DNA of 64,000 bases. Origin: Verrucomicrobiota bacterium (GTDB lineage Bacteria; Verrucomicrobiota; Verrucomicrobiia; Limisphaerales; PALSA-1396). The position numbers and the translations under genes were made by a program. The number at the start of each line of letters is the position of its first letter. Position 1 is the stretch's first letter. Of the stretch, positions 1,197 through 8,943 are shown piece after piece. The stretch lies in assembly GCA_016200005.1 (NCBI GenBank), contig JACQFP010000031.1, positions 1 through 64,000 of the forward strand. Direction: 5' to 3'. The notes under the pieces are model-generated. The model was not told where the DNA came from. It saw only the letters and a list, made by a program, of their open reading frames with translations, and searched no databases.

Positions 1197-1871
1197 ATGA
1201 AAAAGCATTCCGCCATGAAGGATCTACTGCGCGTCATGGCCCGGCTGCGTTCGCCCACCGGCTGTCCGTGGGACCGCGAACAGAATCACAAGTCGCTGCG
1301 TTGGCACGCCGTTGAGGAGGTTTATGAATTGCTCGACGCCATCGAGGCCGGCGACGACCAAGAAATGGTTGAGGAACTGGGTGACGTTCTGTTGCAAGTG
1401 GTTTTTCACTGTCAACTGGCGAAGGAGCGCGGCGCATTTGATTTTGAAAAAGTCTGCCGGCACATCGTGGACAAGTTGATCCGCCGCCATCCGCACGTCT
1501 TTGGCAACGTCAAGGTGAAGAACGTCGATCAGGTTTGGGCGAACTGGGAGAAGATCAAACATGCCGAGAAGCATGGGACGAAACACGCGCGTCCATCCGC
1601 GCTCGACGGAATTCCAAAACATCTGCCTGCCCTGTTGCGCGCGGAGAAGCTCGTGAAGAAAGCGCGCAAGGCCGGACTGGCGCGAGTGAAGCCTGGGCGT
1701 GGCCCGAAAAGATCCGAGATCGGCCCGACGTTTTTTGATATCGTAGCCTACGCGCAATTGCACGGCTGGTCGGTCGAAGAACTGCTGTCCACGGAGATCC
1801 GAAAACGTGAACGCAGGTTGCGCCAGATTGAAATGTCGCCGGCGCCTCGACAAAACAAAAATGTGAATTAG
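1197..1871 (+). CDS. mazG: Nucleoside triphosphate pyrophosphohydrolase MazG
   Basis: Hydrolyses (d)NTPs to NMP and pyrophosphate, a house-cleaning role for non-canonical nucleotides. The N-terminal MazG domain shows the typical GCPWDREQNH segment and the metal-binding EEVYE...EELGD pattern (about residues 40-65), followed by VFHCQLAKE. The second half (about 120-215) keeps GIPKHLPALLRAEKLVKKA and a weaker second MazG-like repeat. The length of 224 residues is slightly short for the two-repeat bacterial family. ATG 1215 (MKDLLRVMARLRSP) is an alternative start. It is co-directional with proB but separated from it by the inverted repeat. Confidence 0.93.
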   Translation: MKKHSAMKDLLRVMARLRSPTGCPWDREQNHKSLRWHAVEEVYELLDAIEAGDDQEMVEELGDVLLQVVFHCQLAKERGAFDFEKVCRHIVDKLIRRHPHVFGNVKVKNVDQVWANWEKIKHAEKHGTKHARPSALDGIPKHLPALLRAEKLVKKARKAGLARVKPGRGPKRSEIGPTFFDIVAYAQLHGWSVEELLSTEIRKRERRLRQIEMSPAPRQNKNVN

Positions 1872-1891
1872 CCTTTCCCCAGATTAATGTT

Positions 1892-2026
1892 ATGAGCGAT
1901 CCACGTTACACAAAACTGGCGAAACTTTTGGTGAACTACTCCACCGCGCTGAAGAAAGGAGACCGCGTCCTGCTGGACATGATCGACGTTCCGGATGAGT
2001 TTTCCATCGAGCTGATGCGCGCCGCA
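1892..2026 (+). pseudogene. N-terminal remnant of an M29-type aminopeptidase
   Basis: The first 45 codons look like the start of a peptidase family M29 (AmpS/PepS) aminopeptidase, with the recognisable stretch LLVNYSTALKKGDRVLLD. After ...ELMRAA the frame changes character abruptly to Pro/Arg-rich sequence, and none of the metal-ligand motifs of the approximately 370-residue enzyme follows. I read it as a gene cut off by a rearrangement about 135 bp into its coding sequence. The start codon context is intact, so a short peptide could still be made. The family call rests on remembered N-terminal similarity. Confidence 0.6.
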
Positions 2027-2421
2027 CCGGGCCACCCACCGGGAAAAACGCAGCGCGCTGCGCCCCACCCCGCGGGGCGGCCGGCGGCCTCATATCCGGA
2101 GTGTGCACATCGCCCTCAGAATCGGCCTGGACGGACGCGTGTCCATCGGCTCCAAACGGCTGCGCGTCGGCGTGGCCGCCGAAACACTCCTCAGCCACGG
2201 TCTCCAGCCCTATGGCGACATCAGCATCCCCCGATTACGAACCCAAGACCGGGGAATGCCCGGCCCGCGTTCTGCAACTCCGCGCCCAATGAATCTGTCC
2301 GCCTCTTGCTCGCACGCTTTTGTTCGCCTTGGAAATCCGCACGACCTACGGAGTGAATGCGCTTGCCGCTTGATTTGCCGGCGGCCAGACGTATTTTCAT
2401 CACCAGAAAATCCAATCAATT
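2027..2421. other. Decayed region without a convincing gene
   Basis: This is the sequence between the M29 remnant and the CDGSH gene. All frames carry short open stretches. The best looking starts at 2102 and reads RIGLDGRVSIGSKRLRVGVA and then, after a frame change, YGDISIPDYEPKTGECP, as if an old coding sequence had taken a small indel. I cannot name it. No RNA gene or repeat was recognised here. Confidence 0.45.
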
Positions 2422-2661
2422 ATGACTGAAGCAATCATCGCTCAAAAGTTCCCGTATGTTCAGGACACGAAGCCCGGCAGTTACTGGTGGTGCGCCTGCG
2501 GTCGTTCCAAAAGCCAGCCGTTTTGTGACGGCTCGCACAAAGGGACCGGATTCGCGCCGATGAAGGTGGACATTGGGGAGTCGAAGAAGGTCGCCTGGTG
2601 CGGTTGCAAACATTCGCAGAACAAACCGTTTTGCGACGGCAGCCACAGCCGGTTGCCTTGA
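2422..2661 (+). CDS. Double-CDGSH iron-sulfur protein
   Basis: A 79-residue protein with two CDGSH iron-sulfur motifs, CACGRSKSQPFCDGSH (about residues 24-39) and CGCKHSQNKPFCDGSH (about 59-74). Each has the three Cys and one His that bind a redox-active, pH-labile [2Fe-2S] cluster. Such small cytosolic proteins are linked to electron transfer or iron and redox homeostasis, but their partners are mostly unknown. There is no membrane segment, unlike eukaryotic mitoNEET. It lies alone, convergent with the roadblock gene, behind a decayed segment. Family assignment is firm, the role is open. Confidence 0.93.
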   Translation: MTEAIIAQKFPYVQDTKPGSYWWCACGRSKSQPFCDGSHKGTGFAPMKVDIGESKKVAWCGCKHSQNKPFCDGSHSRLP

Positions 2662-2703
2662 CCCTGTCGATCAACGGACTGCTCGCCGGCGCGGCGGCGG
2701 AAC

Positions 2704-3186
2704 TCAGGCGCTTTTCTTCCGGAACACGCTGCTGGTGTCGGTGAGGTTGAGGACGGAGAGGTCGAGGCTGGCGTTGGGATCGCGTTGATGCGCGAGCTTG
2801 AGTTGATCGGCCACGCGCGCGCCCGCCGAGATGGCGTAATATTTCACCGCGCCCACGCTGACGCTGGCTTTGAAGATGACCACCAGCAGACAATGTTCAT
2901 CAATGTTGCTGGCGAACATGCTGAAATTCTCGCCCTGTTGGTAAACGCTGTTGAAGTTGTTTTCGCGAACCAGATTGGCGATGGTCTGGTTGGCCATATA
3001 CGCGCCGGATGCCAGGGCGGCGATGGTCGTGAGATCAAATTCTTCCGATTCGCCTTTGTGCGTGATGAGGAAACCGCCTTTGTCGATGATGAGGGCGGTC
3101 GTGGCTTCGCTGCTGGCCAGCAATTCTTTTAGAATCTGGTCGAGTTGGCGGATGTCCTCCTCAATCAGTTGAGGCAGCGTGGGCAT
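2704..3186 (-). CDS. Roadblock/LC7 protein, MglB-like
   Basis: A 160-residue Roadblock/LC7-domain protein. The core fold covers about residues 10-125: a first helix EEDIRQLDQILKELLASSEA, the strand ALIIDKGGFLITHKG, then TIAALASGAYMANQTIANLV and FSMFASNIDEHCLLVVIF. MglB-type roadblock proteins dimerise and act as GTPase-activating partners of MglA-type small GTPases. This gene ends an operon whose preceding gene is such a GTPase, with only 1 bp between them, so a GAP or co-GEF role is the natural inference. A C-terminal tail of about 35 residues is not recognised. Confidence 0.88.
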   Translation of the reverse strand: MPTLPQLIEEDIRQLDQILKELLASSEATTALIIDKGGFLITHKGESEEFDLTTIAALASGAYMANQTIANLVRENNFNSVYQQGENFSMFASNIDEHCLLVVIFKASVSVGAVKYYAISAGARVADQLKLAHQRDPNASLDLSVLNLTDTSSVFRKKSA

Positions 3187-3187
3187 A

Positions 3188-3802
3188 TCACGCAGGTGTG
3201 CGGGTCCCCTGGCTGATGAATTTGTTCAGCAGGAGGCGGGTGATCATATTGAGGGTTTCGAAGACGCCTTCGCACTTGTGAGCGGTGGAGGAGAAGGTGG
3301 GGACTTGCACCTCGCGATTGTTGAGCAGATATTCCATGTATTCAACCGGGGCGACATTGGGCAGGTCGCGTTTGTTGAATTGGAGGACATAAGGGATGTC
3401 CGACAGATTAAGTTTCAGGGTCTTCAGGTTCTCTTCCAGGTTGGCAAAGCTCTCGACGTTTTCCGCCATCTTTTCGTATTGCGAATCGGCTACAAAGACG
3501 ATGCCGTCCACGCCGCGCAAGACCAGTTGCCGGGTGGTGTTGTAAATGACCTGGCCGGGCACGGTGTAAAGTTGGAACTTGGTTTTGAAGCCTTTGATCG
3601 ACATGGCTTCGATGGGCAAAAAATCGAAGAACAGTGTGCGGTCGGAGCTGGTGGCCAGCGAAACCAACTTGCCTTTGTTGCCCTGGGCGGTTTGCACGTG
3701 ATCGTGCACCTGCACCAAATTGGTGGTTTTGCCGCCCATGGCCGGCCCGTAATAGACAATCTTGACCTGAAGTTCTTTGGTTGCCTGGTTGATGATCGCC
3801 AT
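3188..3802 (-). CDS. MglA-like Ras-superfamily GTPase
   Basis: A small GTPase of the bacterial MglA/Arf-like group, 204 residues from the ATG at 3802, which begins MAIINQATKELQVKIVYYG. The P-loop is GPAMGGKTTN (about residues 18-27). The switch/Walker B part reads YTVPGQVIYNTTRQLVLRGV, and the guanine-specificity motif is NKRD in QFNKRDLP. As in other MglA proteins the usual DxxGQ aspartate is replaced (TVPGQ). These GTPases set cell polarity for gliding or pili in Myxococcus; other homologues have no known output. It sits between two roadblock genes in one minus-strand operon. Confidence 0.93.
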   Translation of the reverse strand: MAIINQATKELQVKIVYYGPAMGGKTTNLVQVHDHVQTAQGNKGKLVSLATSSDRTLFFDFLPIEAMSIKGFKTKFQLYTVPGQVIYNTTRQLVLRGVDGIVFVADSQYEKMAENVESFANLEENLKTLKLNLSDIPYVLQFNKRDLPNVAPVEYMEYLLNNREVQVPTFSSTAHKCEGVFETLNMITRLLLNKFISQGTRTPA

Positions 3803-3812
3803 AAGTTTTTGG

Positions 3813-5384
3813 TTACTTGGTTTTCCGATCCAGTTCGCCCACAATCGTGACCAGTTGGGCGGTCGGTAATGGCTCTCCCGCGCGACCAAAGGCCGCGAAA
3901 TACATGCCGCCGACCCGGAAGATTTTCCACGGAGTGTTCCCGACGGTAAAGTTGAGGTTGTTCAGCTCCCCCATTTTAAGCTCCCGCGCCGACTGGCTGG
4001 TGCGGCCGAAGATTTGCGGCAGAAAAGCGGCCAGCGTTTCGCCGTTCATGTCGGGCGGAAGTTCCTTGGCCACCAGCAGTCCATCCGCCAGAGCGATGAG
4101 CGTTCCCGCCACGCCTTCCAGAGCGGCGGCTTTGCGGACAATTTCATTGGGCGTCGGGAAACGCTTCAGAAAATCCGTGGCGGGTGGGGCGGGCGCCGCG
4201 GCGGGTTTGGAAACCGACGCCAAATCCACCGGCTTGTCGGCATCGTCGCCCCAAATATAATAATTTGTTTCTTCCTCGCGGCGGGTAGGTGCCGGCTTGG
4301 CCGGAATGAACTGCGGCGCGCTGGTCGCAGCCGGTTGCGCAAGTGAACTGGAAAACAAATCGGGGATATCTTGAGCAAGGGGAACCTTGACCGCGGACTT
4401 GCTGGCGCGTTGGCGGGCCAGGAAAAGCGGCGCAATGATTTTCAATGGCAAGTCCAAAACGATTCCGTCATGCACGGACGCGGCGGCGGCGACTGGCAGC
4501 GGCTTAATCATGGAACGAAGCAGCTTCCAGGTGAATGTCACCTTGCCATGCTTCAATTCATTTGCCAGCACGTCCATGGGCAACGCCACGATGGCACCGG
4601 ACAGATTGAGCTGGAGAATCTCCTGACGCACGCCCTCCGGCCAGGTTTGGCTCAACTCGCCGAGGACAACCATCAAATAGTCGGGTTCCCGGGCGACGGT
4701 CGGCGCGGCGACCGGGGCCGACGGCTCTCGCGGTGCTGCGGCCGGCGACACGGCCAGGTCGCGAAGCGCCGCCGGGGCGGGAATGGCAGCGGGCGCCTGG
4801 ACCGGCTCTGGCGCCGGTTGGAGGGCCGGCCGCGGGCGGGGTGCCGCCGGTGCCTGCGTGGGCGCGGTAAAAGGTTGGGAAGGCGGGGCGCCAATGACCA
4901 ACCCCTGGCCTTTGGCACCAAATGGGCCGGCGATTCCCGCCGGCGGTTCGACTTTTTTTTGCGGCGGGCGCCGCGCCAGCAGCGCGGGATCCAAGCGGGA
5001 AAGAATCTCGGACAAGGGCAACTCCACGAGGACCTGGTCCAGATCGTCTTGGTCGGAGAAAGTTCCTGGCGGCGCCGCCCGGCGCAGTTCACCAAAAGAG
5101 AGTTTCACCGAACCGCGGGCGAGTTGCGGAAGAATCTTTTCCGTGGCGAGGAGCACATCCACCTGGGTGGCGTAGGATTGATTGACGCGGGCCTGCAAAT
5201 CTCCCGGCAACTGGGCCAGGATGGCGTTCAACGGCAAAGCCAGCCGGGCCAGCGTGCGAACGGCAGGCGCCGGCAGGGGTTGACGTGTTCCGCTGGCGGC
5301 TGACGTAGCAGGGCTGGACATCGGCTGGACTTGAGCCGCGGCTTGCACCGGGCTGCCCAAAAGTTTTTTTATAAAGCGGAACAT
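3813..5384 (-). CDS. Large Pro/Ala-rich protein with C-terminal roadblock-like domain
   Basis: First gene of the GTPase operon, 523 residues from the ATG at 5384 (MFRFIKKLLGSP); the frame is open far upstream but that part is not protein-like. An N-terminal ordered part (about 40-130) precedes a Pro/Ala-rich linker. A middle domain with YLMVVLGELSQTWPEGVRQE follows, and then a second linker. The last 120 residues resemble a Roadblock/LC7 domain (ALEGVAGTLIALADGLLVA ... GGMYFAAFGRAGEPLP). It ends 10 bp before the GTPase gene. It may be a scaffold or an alternative GTPase partner; the N-terminal parts are unassigned. Confidence 0.75.
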   Translation of the reverse strand: MFRFIKKLLGSPVQAAAQVQPMSSPATSAASGTRQPLPAPAVRTLARLALPLNAILAQLPGDLQARVNQSYATQVDVLLATEKILPQLARGSVKLSFGELRRAAPPGTFSDQDDLDQVLVELPLSEILSRLDPALLARRPPQKKVEPPAGIAGPFGAKGQGLVIGAPPSQPFTAPTQAPAAPRPRPALQPAPEPVQAPAAIPAPAALRDLAVSPAAAPREPSAPVAAPTVAREPDYLMVVLGELSQTWPEGVRQEILQLNLSGAIVALPMDVLANELKHGKVTFTWKLLRSMIKPLPVAAAASVHDGIVLDLPLKIIAPLFLARQRASKSAVKVPLAQDIPDLFSSSLAQPAATSAPQFIPAKPAPTRREEETNYYIWGDDADKPVDLASVSKPAAAPAPPATDFLKRFPTPNEIVRKAAALEGVAGTLIALADGLLVAKELPPDMNGETLAAFLPQIFGRTSQSARELKMGELNNLNFTVGNTPWKIFRVGGMYFAAFGRAGEPLPTAQLVTIVGELDRKTK

Positions 5385-5785
5385 TTTTTGCCTTGTTCGC
5401 AATTTGGCAGAGCCAATGGGTTTCGTCGATATTTTATTACTTGACCGTGCTGTCAATTTCAAAAGTTTCAAAATGGGACAAGCTGACAACCCGGTCGTTA
5501 AAAAACAGGACATCAAACTTGGAAAGAGAGAACCCACTGTTCCCTCTCCCTGCGCGCGGAACGGATCTCGCCGACCACCCAGCACGATATAGCAAACCTG
5601 GGGCCGCCACCTGCAGCAACCTCGCGCGGCGGGCGCGCTCTTCGGCCTCCCCCGGCGCACCGGCCGCCGCACCTCGATACGCCGATTTTGAGTTCCGGAC
5701 AACTTTATTTTCCCCGGCTTGCTTTTTCCGGCGCGACGAGTCTTTATAGAGCCAGCGAGCGTATGTGCCGAACGTGACGATGGCC
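5385..5785. promoter_or_regulatory. Divergent intergenic region of the GTPase module
   Basis: About 400 bp lie between the minus-strand roadblock operon and the plus-strand response-regulator operon, so both outward promoters must be here. The part near 5384 is AT-richer (ATTTTTTG, TATTTTATTACTTGAC) and is the likelier promoter side. The middle is GC-rich, with no gene or strong repeat recognised. No specific operator could be assigned. Confidence 0.4.
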
Positions 5786-6865
5786 ATGAACCACAAAATT
5801 TTGTTGGTGGACGATGATCAAGACCTGCTGGTCATGTATCGCGAGATCCTGTCCAAGCTGCCCAGCCAACCGGAGATTCACACCGCCGCCAGCGGCGCGC
5901 GCGCGCTGGCGCTGCTGGAGGACGAGCCGTTCACCTTGCTGATTTGCGACCTCAAAATGCCCAAGATGGACGGCCTCCAGGTCTTGTCCATCGTCCGTCG
6001 CAAGCATCCGCAATTGCGGACCGTGGTGTTGACCGCCATCATGGATGAACAGTTCCGTTCGCGCGTTTACGCCCTCGGAGTGGACCAGTTCTGGCAAAAG
6101 CCGGGCACGGAACAAGAAATCAAACTCTTCCTGGATTGTCTGGAGTCGCTGCTGGGTCGCGAGGCGCAAAGCGGCTTTCGCGGCATGCAAAGCAAGAGCC
6201 TGGTCGATATCCTCCAGTTGGAGTGTCTTTCTCAAAGCTCCGCGGTGCTGAAAATCTCCAACGGCCCGCAAACGGCCAGGATCTGGATTCAAAACGGCGA
6301 GTTGATTGATGCGACGACGGACGACTTGACGGGCGAACCGGCTTTCCGGGCGATCCTTGCCTGGAAAACCGGCTTGTTTGAAACGCTGGCGGCCGAACCG
6401 GCCCGGCCCCGGACCATTTTCAATTCCTATCAGGCGTTGCTGCTCGAAACTGCGCAGGCGTTTGACGAGTCCAAAGCCCATGACACCGAAGTCATCACCT
6501 CTTCGGCCACGCCGGCCGGGCCGGACGCCACGCCCGTCTCGCCGCTGGCGGCGCTGATGCGTCGTCACGGTGTGGAATTCGCCCTGGAAACCAACCACAC
6601 CGACCCGAAACAGTTCGAAGCCCACGGTCTGGAGAACCCGCAGCCGATGGCGGATTGGGCGCGGCAAATGATGGACCGTTTAACGTCACTGGGGGATCGC
6701 CTGCGGGCGGGACAACTCAACCAGGTCGAATGCCTGGGGCCACAGCGCCACGTCGCGATTGTGCCGCGCGGCAACGCGGAGCTGTGCATCGGGTGGAATC
6801 ATAACATGTCCGGCGGAAAAATCCGGGAAACGATGAAAAAGATTCTCAATCAATGGGCTTCCTGA
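5786..6865 (+). CDS. Response regulator with DUF4388 (PATAN-like) domain
   Basis: About 359 residues from ATG 5786 (MNHKILLVDDDQDLL); GTG 5765 and ATG 5780 are alternatives. The receiver domain spans about 1-120, with acidic DDD, phospho-acceptor Asp in ICDLKMPKMDGL and the conserved Lys in WQKPG. A DUF4388/PATAN-type domain follows (about 130-230: GMQSKSLVDILQLE, ARIWIQNGELIDA). The C-terminal third (GVEFALETNHTDPK ... ELCIGWNHNMSGGK) may be a roadblock-like domain. DUF4388 proteins commonly occur with Mgl-type GTPases, and this gene is divergent from one. No DNA-binding domain is evident, so the output is probably protein-protein. Confidence 0.88.
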   Translation: MNHKILLVDDDQDLLVMYREILSKLPSQPEIHTAASGARALALLEDEPFTLLICDLKMPKMDGLQVLSIVRRKHPQLRTVVLTAIMDEQFRSRVYALGVDQFWQKPGTEQEIKLFLDCLESLLGREAQSGFRGMQSKSLVDILQLECLSQSSAVLKISNGPQTARIWIQNGELIDATTDDLTGEPAFRAILAWKTGLFETLAAEPARPRTIFNSYQALLLETAQAFDESKAHDTEVITSSATPAGPDATPVSPLAALMRRHGVEFALETNHTDPKQFEAHGLENPQPMADWARQMMDRLTSLGDRLRAGQLNQVECLGPQRHVAIVPRGNAELCIGWNHNMSGGKIRETMKKILNQWAS

Positions 6866-7158
6866 GTCAAATCTTCAAACCCCCCGCGGCGCCACTCTTA
6901 CGGCTTCCTTCCGGGAGCTTTACGCTGGATCGCGAAGGGCGGATTATTATCTCGACGGTGGCGCAGTCGTATCCGGTGTCGTTTCTGCAAGAAATCGGCG
7001 ACCAGGTGCTGGCCGCATTCAATTCGGCGCAAGCCGCGCAGTTGCCGCTGTCCGAACTCATCGTCCACTTTTCCAGTCTGACGGTGACTGCGCGCGAGTT
7101 GCGCGGCGGCGCGGTCGTATTCTTGTCGCCGCCCGAAGTGGCCGCTCCGCAAAACTGA
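6853..7158 (+). CDS. Small roadblock-like protein
   Basis: A 101-residue protein whose ATG lies 13 bp inside the end of the response-regulator gene, so the two are probably translationally coupled. The pattern SFTLDREGRIIISTVAQSYP, a central helix and a final hydrophobic strand GGAVVFLSPP resemble the roadblock/LC7 fold, but the match is weak. It is a plausible partner of the upstream regulator or the divergent GTPase. No signal peptide or membrane helix is present. Confidence 0.65.
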   Translation: MGFLSQIFKPPAAPLLRLPSGSFTLDREGRIIISTVAQSYPVSFLQEIGDQVLAAFNSAQAAQLPLSELIVHFSSLTVTARELRGGAVVFLSPPEVAAPQN

Positions 7159-7181
7159 ATCGAACTCCAAGCAACCTGCTT

Positions 7182-7580
7182 ATGCGCAATAAAAAATTGG
7201 ACCGGGTCATCCAGCAGATGGAAAATTATCTGGAGTGCTGGAAGCAATTCAATCACTTCGTCAATCTGGCCCGCGGCAAGAAGTTCGGCCCGGATGATGA
7301 AAACCAATTCTTGGAGATCAAGAGCATCATCACCCAGGAGCTGGAGGTGATTTTCGCCGCCATGGATGTCTTTTCCCCCACCCGCGAAGACGTGCTCTCG
7401 CTGATCTCCAGCGCCCCCTCGCTGCGCTACCTCAGCGAATTGCACGAAGGCAACCTGCGCAGCCTGGAAAGTCAGTGGCACCGGATTTACATCGGCTGGC
7501 ATTCCATCCTGGGCCAGCTCAAGGTCAAGCAGATGCAGTTGGGCGAAAAATCCCTCCGCTCCTCGATGTTTGGCGGATAG
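7182..7580 (+). CDS. Hypothetical helical protein of the GTPase module
   Basis: A 132-residue soluble, mostly helical protein (MRNKKLDRVIQQMENYLECW ...). I recognise no family. It follows the small roadblock-like gene by 23 bp and is probably the last gene of that operon, because the next gene (uppP) starts 90 bp later and is unrelated. It is rich in charged and aromatic residues, with predicted helices at about 4-30, 42-65 and 85-120. An adaptor role is only a guess from position. Confidence 0.65.
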   Translation: MRNKKLDRVIQQMENYLECWKQFNHFVNLARGKKFGPDDENQFLEIKSIITQELEVIFAAMDVFSPTREDVLSLISSAPSLRYLSELHEGNLRSLESQWHRIYIGWHSILGQLKVKQMQLGEKSLRSSMFGG

Positions 7581-7670
7581 GCAAAGCAGCAGCGACCTTG
7601 TACAGGTTGCTTCCTTACGGACCAGGATTTGCCGCTTGTCAACGGCGGCAATTTATCGTCTAAACGGCGC

Positions 7671-8459
7671 GTGCCAGACTGGATCGCTGTCATTTTGCTC
7701 GGGGTCATTGAAGGCGTGACCGAGTTCATTCCAGTTTCTTCGACCGGACATCTGCTGATTGCCGAACGCTGGCTGCCGCGTCAGACCGATTTGTTCAACG
7801 TGGTCATTCAATGCGGCGCGGTGCTGGCGGTGATTCCGCTCTTTTCCATCCGCTGCCAGCAAATCCTCTTCCGGTTGCAGGAATCGGAAACGCGCCGCTT
7901 CCTTCTGAAAATCCTGCTGGCATTTGGGTTGACGGGGGTCGTGGGATTTGTGCTCGAAAAAAAACATTTCAAGCTGCCGGAAACCTCCACCCCTGTCGCC
8001 TGGGCGTTGCTGGTCGGCGGCATTCTGTTCGTCGCGGTTGAGCGTTGGCTGCGCGGCAAACCGTTGCGCGAAGAAGTGACCTGGACGGTGGCGCTGGTCG
8101 TTGGGGTCGGTCAACTGATCGCCGCTGTGTTCCCCGGCACCTCGCGGTCTGGCGCGACGATCTTGCTGGCGCTGGCAATGGGCTTGAGCCGTCCGGCGGC
8201 CACGGAGTTTTCGTTTCTGGTCGGCATCCCAACAATGCTGGCGGCGGGCGGATTGAAAATCTTCAAAGCGCTGCATCACCCGCCACCGGACGCGGTCCCG
8301 GAACATTGGGGGATGGTTTGCCTGGGAACAATCGTCGCCGCCCTCGTTTCGTTCATCGCGGTGAAATGGCTGTTGCACTACATCCAGACGCACACCTTCA
8401 CGGCGTTCGGCTGGTATCGCATCGCGCTGGGGATTCTGCTGCTCGTTTTGTTTCGTTGA
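7671..8459 (+). CDS. uppP: Undecaprenyl-diphosphatase UppP/BacA
   Basis: An integral membrane enzyme that dephosphorylates undecaprenyl pyrophosphate to recycle the lipid carrier for peptidoglycan and O-antigen; overproduction of the family gives bacitracin resistance. Both signature segments are present: EGVTEFIPVSSTGHLLI near the N-terminus and PGTSRSGATI (about residues 155-164). Around seven hydrophobic helices follow the family pattern. GTG 7671 (VPDWIAVILLGVIEG) is preferred over TTG 7629 because the upstream 14 codons are hydrophilic and atypical. Length is 262 residues, normal for the family. Confidence 0.96.
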   Translation: MPDWIAVILLGVIEGVTEFIPVSSTGHLLIAERWLPRQTDLFNVVIQCGAVLAVIPLFSIRCQQILFRLQESETRRFLLKILLAFGLTGVVGFVLEKKHFKLPETSTPVAWALLVGGILFVAVERWLRGKPLREEVTWTVALVVGVGQLIAAVFPGTSRSGATILLALAMGLSRPAATEFSFLVGIPTMLAAGGLKIFKALHHPPPDAVPEHWGMVCLGTIVAALVSFIAVKWLLHYIQTHTFTAFGWYRIALGILLLVLFR

Positions 8460-8568
8460 CCACCGTGCGGGTCCCCCATTATTGCGGCGTAGTGGTTGCT
8501 CCACCAGGTTATTCGATGCGAACAATCTGCGGGTGGAAGTTGCGCGACCATTTCGTCAGCGAAAAGCC

Positions 8569-8943
8569 TTAACGCTGTTGTCCCAGCCACAGCAAAATCA
8601 TCGGCACGAGAATCCCCAGCGCCAGCGAGAGCCAGATTGGCCAGCGCTGCCGACTAGAGCGAAACGCCAGCACGATGCCCAACGCAATCGTCGTGATCAG
8701 CGCCACGCACATCACGACCACGAGATAACGAAACCACGCGGTGTGGTACGCTTGCGCCGAGCCGCTGGGAAAATGCTGCTCCACGTGCACCGTGCTCAAC
8801 CGCGTCACCAGCGTGTCAGCCTCGCTGCTGCCTTTCTTGCGGTCGGGATTCATCGTCTGGTACCAGCCCGTTCCCACGAAGAACAAAAGCAGCGGGGCAA
8901 AGAAACAGCCGAGGAACGTGTGAATGCGACGCAGGGATTTCAT
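8569..8943 (-). CDS. PepSY-associated-type membrane protein, hypothetical
   Basis: 124 residues with three hydrophobic helices, at about 8-26, 70-93 and 100-120. The opening RRIHTFLGCFFAPLLLFFVGTGWYQ resembles the first helix of PepSY-associated TM proteins. A short hydrophilic loop between helices one and two contains a His. There are no enzymatic motifs. It is convergent with uppP, stands alone, and starts about 90 bp from the end of the LysM gene. The family hint is weak. Confidence 0.6.
   Translation of the reverse strand: MKSLRRIHTFLGCFFAPLLLFFVGTGWYQTMNPDRKKGSSEADTLVTRLSTVHVEQHFPSGSAQAYHTAWFRYLVVVMCVALITTIALGIVLAFRSSRQRWPIWLSLALGILVPMILLWLGQQR

Follow-up and report, generated by a model that had tools for sequence, protein, structure and literature searches.

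Analysis of a 64,000-nucleotide stretch from a Verrucomicrobiota bacterium of the order Limisphaerales (positions 1 to 64,000 of contig JACQFP010000031.1, assembly GCA_016200005.1; hereafter the window) revealed that positions 2704-7580 hold six genes in two divergent operons, which encode a GTPase of the MglA type, several proteins with roadblock domains and a response regulator (Table 1). A first-pass annotation, made from the letters of the sequence, had described six adjacent genes with gaps of 1-10 bp and an overlap of 13 bp, and the open reading frames (ORFs) were found at the given places, with coordinates, gaps and overlap as first described. On the minus strand, 1 bp separates the roadblock gene (rbl160) from mglA, and 10 bp separate mglA from the gene of the large protein (Big); the plus strand encodes the response regulator and two small proteins, s101 and h132. 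In the 6.5-Mb genome to which the window belongs, MglA and a DUF4388 protein were each found once and Robl_LC7 was matched twice, in every case in this locus.

Table 1. Genes, domains and intergenic features of the six-gene locus
Feature	Position	Strand	Basis
Rbl160, MglB-like roadblock protein, 160 aa	2704-3186	-	Robl_LC7 and MglB structure matches
MglA-type Ras-like GTPase, 204 aa, Group 1 motifs (Arg55, TVPGQ with Gln84, NKRD)	3188-3802	-	M. xanthus MglA match
Big, 523 aa: duplicated N-terminal domain, Pro/Ala-rich linkers, C-terminal roadblock	3813-5384	-	AlphaFold, Foldseek, Robl_LC7
Big C-terminal roadblock (predicted), residues 412-522	3819-4151	-	AlphaFold and Foldseek
Big N-terminal domain copy 2, residues 232-335	4380-4691	-	hhalign; folded, pLDDT ~90
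Big N-terminal domain copy 1, residues 45-140	4965-5252	-	hhalign, copy 1 versus copy 2
Intergenic region separating the divergent operons, presumed promoters	5385-5785	.	Sequence; divergent spacing in relatives, length variable
Response regulator, 359 aa: receiver, PATAN (DUF4388), C-terminal roadblock-like domain	5786-6865	+	Response_reg and DUF4388 matches
PATAN/DUF4388 domain	6197-6472	+	DUF4388 match
Probable roadblock at response regulator C-terminus, residues 245-359	6518-6862	+	Profile evidence only
s101, 101-aa minimal roadblock protein (predicted), no outer helices; short hydrophobic/basic N-terminus	6853-7158	+	Model of L014 homologue, Foldseek
Overlap of response regulator and s101 genes, 13 bp	6853-6865	+	Same length in 60/62 loci
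h132, 132-aa all-helical protein, no known family	7182-7580	+	Conservation; helices in model

Comparison with Myxococcus xanthus MglA bore out the proposed MglA-like GTPase, with a match of E 8.7e-62 across residues 1-195, in which Arg55 and Gln84 of the window protein align with Arg53 and Gln82 of M. xanthus MglA, whose roles are given in PMC6876712. Group 1 MglA proteins are defined by an intrinsic arginine finger and a TVPGQ G3 motif (Wuichet and Sogaard-Andersen 2014, PMC4316618), and the window protein has both, the arginine finger adjoining the G2 threonine (Arg55-Thr56). The first-pass annotation had called the GTPase a TVPGQ variant; Group 1 MglA proteins, however, have TVPGQ as their standard G3 motif (PMC4316618), and the motif here is normal. 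The motif residues checked were invariant in 81 of 81 sequences. Judged by its sequence, the GTPase is thus an intact MglA of Group 1 type, and its intact residues predict cycling between GTP and GDP. For Verrucomicrobia, PMC4316618 lists Group 5 MglA only, not Group 1.

The MglA scan of relatives gave 80 loci, nearly all from metagenome-assembled genomes (MAGs) labelled Verrucomicrobia subdivision 3, Limisphaerales or Pedosphaera. Sixty loci exceed 9 kb in length; clustering of all their genes placed each of the six families in 53-60 of them, and the next commonest neighbours were UppP (26), a LysM protein (18) and a PilT-like ATPase (9); the grouping is therefore not due to chance. The divergent order was identical in all 57 loci having all six families (four of them looked misordered from stop-to-stop ORF ends, and start-trimmed coordinates gave the correct order), and the overlap between the response regulator and s101 genes was exactly 13 bp in 60 of 62 loci. 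The gene-neighbourhood check suggested by the first-pass annotation thus found a conserved order, and these data support the six genes as one syntenic Mgl-type GTPase module.

The two halves of the module are not always linked. Among the 54 loci with enough flanking DNA, four do not have the regulator half beside MglA (L016, L023, L070 and L080), and genome G125 carries the halves at separate places (L148 and L149). Across 97 genomes of the order, 51 had both h132 and MglA, 9 had h132 only, 4 had MglA only and 33 had neither (Fisher p 4e-13, uncorrected for relatedness); given the separate halves in G125, this co-occurrence is more than mere linkage. A search of 114 other genomes of the phylum returned no h132. 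Copy number or content differs in some relatives: L079 has the regulator and s101 genes duplicated in tandem (1621-4544), Centralia_MAG_180 (L002, L080) contains two Big-MglA-roadblock copies in one MAG, the second without the regulator half, and L151 (genome G144) has an h132 homologue with neither regulator nor s101 beside it and no MglA detected in the genome.

The locus probably encodes four roadblock domains, namely Rbl160, the C-terminus of Big, s101 and the C-terminus of the response regulator. The first-pass annotation had counted up to three roadblock-like partners for the GTPase; the plurality of partners stands, and the number rises with the response regulator. Rbl160 matched Robl_LC7 (E 8.6e-10) and the MglB chains of Thermus and Myxococcus (E 4e-14 to 1e-12, the lowest for T. 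thermophilus MglB), and is a roadblock domain homologous to MglB encoded next to mglA; because it falls below the NCBIfam MglB equivalog cut-off (73.9 bits versus 200, with a Thermus-type model), we name it MglB-like only. The AlphaFold model of Big residues 412-522 has the order H-E-E-H-E-E-E-H with a predicted local distance difference test (pLDDT) score of ~95, Foldseek matched it to roadblock, Ragulator and MglB structures (best E 2.3e-8), and Robl_LC7 was matched in 43 of 43 Big family members. The C-terminus of Big is therefore modelled with confidence as the roadblock fold that had been suspected there.

The model of s101, obtained from the L014 homologue, is beta-beta-alpha-beta-beta-beta with pLDDT >90, a roadblock core without the outer helices; Foldseek gave E 2.4e-5 to a roadblock, with roadblock-containing structures filling the listed matches, the sole match of the s101 profile in the PDB was a roadblock (E 0.036), and no Pfam match was obtained. 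s101 is thus predicted to have the roadblock fold in its core only, which agrees with the earlier proposal for the 101-residue protein, and the suggested Foldseek check on the large and small proteins returned such folds in both Big and s101. In that model s101 and h132 of L014 were joined in one chain, the in-frame stop between the genes being read as Trp; the resulting fusion is artificial, not biology, and is not taken as a complex. For the C-terminus of the response regulator, the best PDB profile match was the Robl_LC7 protein 7f8f_A (E 0.0045, positions 9-91), and a weak Robl_LC7 match was seen in 3 of 40 members (best E 0.011), so that this region is a probable roadblock domain. Pairwise hhalign of the domain alignments of the locus failed to relate even the two Pfam-positive roadblocks; its negatives are therefore without weight, and it was kept for the Big duplication only. 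Motifs suggestive of amphipathic N-terminal membrane anchors (MGFLxxFxK in s101 and MFRFIKKLLG in Big) had a shuffle z of only ~1, with equally high values in the MglA and roadblock controls, and we therefore do not claim such anchors.

Big, s101 and h132 are real conserved families. The first-pass annotation could name no function for the large protein and the two small ones; it had overlooked that Big contains a domain twice, at residues 45-140 and again at 232-335 (hhalign probability 99.2, E 2e-19); this domain has no Pfam match. In the AlphaFold model the domains of Big are joined by Pro/Ala-rich disordered linkers, and Foldseek found nothing among viral structures, and the PDB matches listed were all roadblocks. 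h132 (67% mean column identity over 25 members) gave no significant Pfam or PDB match and is a new family; its model contains helices, in line with the helical protein first described.

The response regulator matched Response_reg (E 2.4e-21) and DUF4388 (E 5e-14), and the acidic pocket of the receiver is kept, with D9, D55 and K105 in 66 of 66 sequences and D10 in 65 of 66. It thus combines a receiver with phospho-acceptor residues and a PATAN/DUF4388 domain, as a PATAN response regulator does, and its earlier description as a phosphorelay-type part holds. The residues D9, D10, D55 and K105 predict phosphorylation of the receiver; the further suggestion that a kinase sets the GTPase switch was not established.

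Relatives suggest type IV pili as the output of the module. Of the 68 loci with enough DNA, 13 have a gene for an ATPase of the PilT/PilU family immediately after the roadblock gene and in the same orientation, and all three ATPases tested passed the PilT/PilU family cut-off; two of the 13 copies (L031 and L042) look frameshifted. At L143, from another order of the same class, the operon reads TPR/MshEN protein, PilB-like ATPase, Big, MglA and roadblock, with 9 bp between the ATPase and Big genes and an overlap of Big and MglA. At L144, an out-group of the phylum, a gene for an MshEN-receiver-PATAN protein lies beside Big and is divergent from MglA-roadblock. The Big homologue there (6843-8573) carries a ComEA-like helix-hairpin-helix (HHH_3, E 4e-19), possibly a hint of DNA binding or uptake.

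The window genome itself carries PilT-, PilB- and PilM-type genes. Thirteen T2SSE-type ATPase matches were found on contigs C13, C87, C18, C47, C33, C41, C50, C49, C46 and C4, among them a run of PilB-PilT-PilB (C13) and two PilT in tandem (C87), and related genomes of the order have 3-17 PilT-model matches.

The best explanation, to which we assign a probability of about 0.6, is that type IV pilus motors are under the control of a self-contained Mgl-type polarity or activity switch, encoded by the locus, which receives phospho-input by way of the PATAN regulator. The first-pass annotation had proposed an Mgl-type switch module with a phospho-receiver, and this much is upheld; pilus motors as the likely output were not part of it. 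MglA would alternate between GTP- and GDP-bound states, and the MglB-like protein would form the core of its GTPase-activating protein (GAP). Big, s101 and the response regulator would each add a roadblock and, together with the MglB-like protein, make up a heteromeric MglA regulator. A kinase encoded elsewhere would phosphorylate the receiver, and this would alter the engagement of MglA by the regulator's roadblock and that of the pilus extension ATPase by PATAN. MglA-GTP, Big or both would then position or activate PilB/PilT-type motors. The protein interactions, the GAP and guanine nucleotide exchange factor (GEF) assignments, the phosphorylation and the pilus output are all predicted from homology and gene neighbourhood. 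There are precedents for the separate steps: in Synechocystis, PilB is reported to be a binding partner of PATAN regulators (Han 2022, cited in PMC10519157), MglA-GTP with SgmX recruits PilB (PMC7519303), and MglB and RomY form a roadblock-containing GAP complex (PMC9481161).

Several observations weigh against a switch on pilus motors. Twelve of the 13 loci with a PilT neighbour fall in one clade of 19 loci, where it is patchy; the neighbour was therefore probably gained in a single event with patchy retention. The ATPase of L143 (MshEN and T2SSE) scored almost equally as PilB (630 bits) and GspE (618 bits), both below the cut-off. In the window genome no pilus gene adjoins the module. All 97 genomes of the order had PilT, whether or not they had the module; because it is universal, gene co-occurrence is no test of the pilus link, and a PilT phylogenetic profile was rejected as such a test. 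There is no kinase in the locus and no cognate kinase was identified. Finally, part of Big is disordered, and neither its N-terminal domains nor h132 have an assigned role.

Two other outputs are about equally unlikely. Instead of motility pili, the module could control a type II-like system of secretion or pseudopili, for which speak the pseudopilin-like genes upstream at L143, the near-equal GspE score there and the many T2SSE ATPases of the window genome. However, the ATPase downstream in the 13 loci belongs to the PilT/PilU retraction family, which secretion pseudopili are not known to have; the PATAN and MglA precedents, moreover, both concern type IV pili. Alternatively, MglA and the roadblocks may mark a pole for cell-wall work in a polarity or envelope-growth module linked to undecaprenyl-diphosphatase (BacA/UppP), the gene of which comes after h132 in the same orientation, both in 26 of 60 loci and in the window (7671-8459, +). 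But UppP is not beside the module in most loci, goes with the h132 half where the module splits (L149), and is a housekeeping gene, and no cell-wall regulator is among the core genes; in the window it is probably a housekeeping neighbour, possibly co-transcribed with h132. Least probable is a signal module that, much like actinobacterial conservons, would feed gene expression or metabolism and have no motility output. In conservons, too, a small GTPase and a roadblock protein go together with two-component parts (PMC4316618). Against this reading, the six proteins showed neither a histidine kinase nor a DNA-binding domain, the MglA here is of Group 1 and conservons have Group 2 (PMC4316618), and pilus ATPases are linked to the module in relatives.

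Returning to the switch on pilus motors, the M. xanthus polarity module (MglA, MglB, RomR/RomX, RomY, MglC and the effector SgmX) shares a Group 1 MglA with an MglB-like partner, and also has extra roadblock proteins, a receiver-domain protein and a type IV pilus motor output (PMC9481161, PMC7519303). In M. xanthus, however, mglA is not near response regulator genes such as RomR (PMC4316618), whereas here all parts are in one locus and the regulator has PATAN and a probable roadblock. Big and h132 are without an assigned M. xanthus counterpart, and homologues of RomX, RomR and SgmX were not searched for. The cyanobacterial PATAN regulators PixE, PixG and LsiR have the same receiver and PATAN and, by interacting with PilB, set twitching direction; the literature covered mentions no MglA acting with them, whereas the regulator here lies in an Mgl locus and, unlike them, has an extra C-terminal roadblock-like domain.

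The eukaryotic Ragulator (LAMTOR) likewise provides several different roadblock domains for a Ras-like GTPase, and the closest folds of Big and s101 include Ragulator subunits. The GTPases differ, no lipid-anchored p18-like wrapper was identified here, and a comparable assembly here is hypothetical. It is a tentative idea, rather doubtful at present, that all four roadblocks sit in one heteromeric, Ragulator-like complex on a single MglA, with a phospho-gated subunit whose roadblock acts on the GTPase and whose PATAN acts on PilB; if true, the regulator would join myxobacterial and cyanobacterial type IV pilus steering in one molecule. Actinobacterial conservons (CvnA-D) share a small GTPase, a roadblock protein and two-component parts with the locus, which differs in having no kinase (CvnA) and no CvnC-type protein among its six proteins and a Group 1 rather than a Group 2 GTPase.

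PATAN genes near MglA or MglB were reported earlier, in 2006 and 2014 (PMC4316618), and the pairing itself is therefore not new. Makarova 2006 and Wuichet 2014 noted occasional Group 1/5 MglA or MglB near PATAN proteins (PMC4316618) and described no fixed six-gene module; our literature search found no paper naming both DUF4388 and MglA. New here are the links to pilus ATPases, the number of roadblock domains and the module of six genes as a fixed unit. As means of steering type IV pili, the MglA GTPase of Myxococcus and the PATAN regulators of cyanobacteria have been studied separately; here they meet in one compact conserved locus, and the joining of phospho-signals and GTPase switches becomes directly testable with six proteins. 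The locus is a candidate motility or polarity switch for Verrucomicrobia subdivision 3, and would provide a bacterial example of a Ras-like GTPase with several roadblock domains of its own.

Two plus-strand features flank the module. The ORF at 1892-2356 begins aminopeptidase-like by eye and then loses the similarity; it has no Pfam match and is a possible gene remnant. At 2422-2661 lies the gene of a twin CDGSH iron-sulfur protein (zf-CDGSH, E 1.6e-22), homologues of which were found in 14 of 80 related loci.

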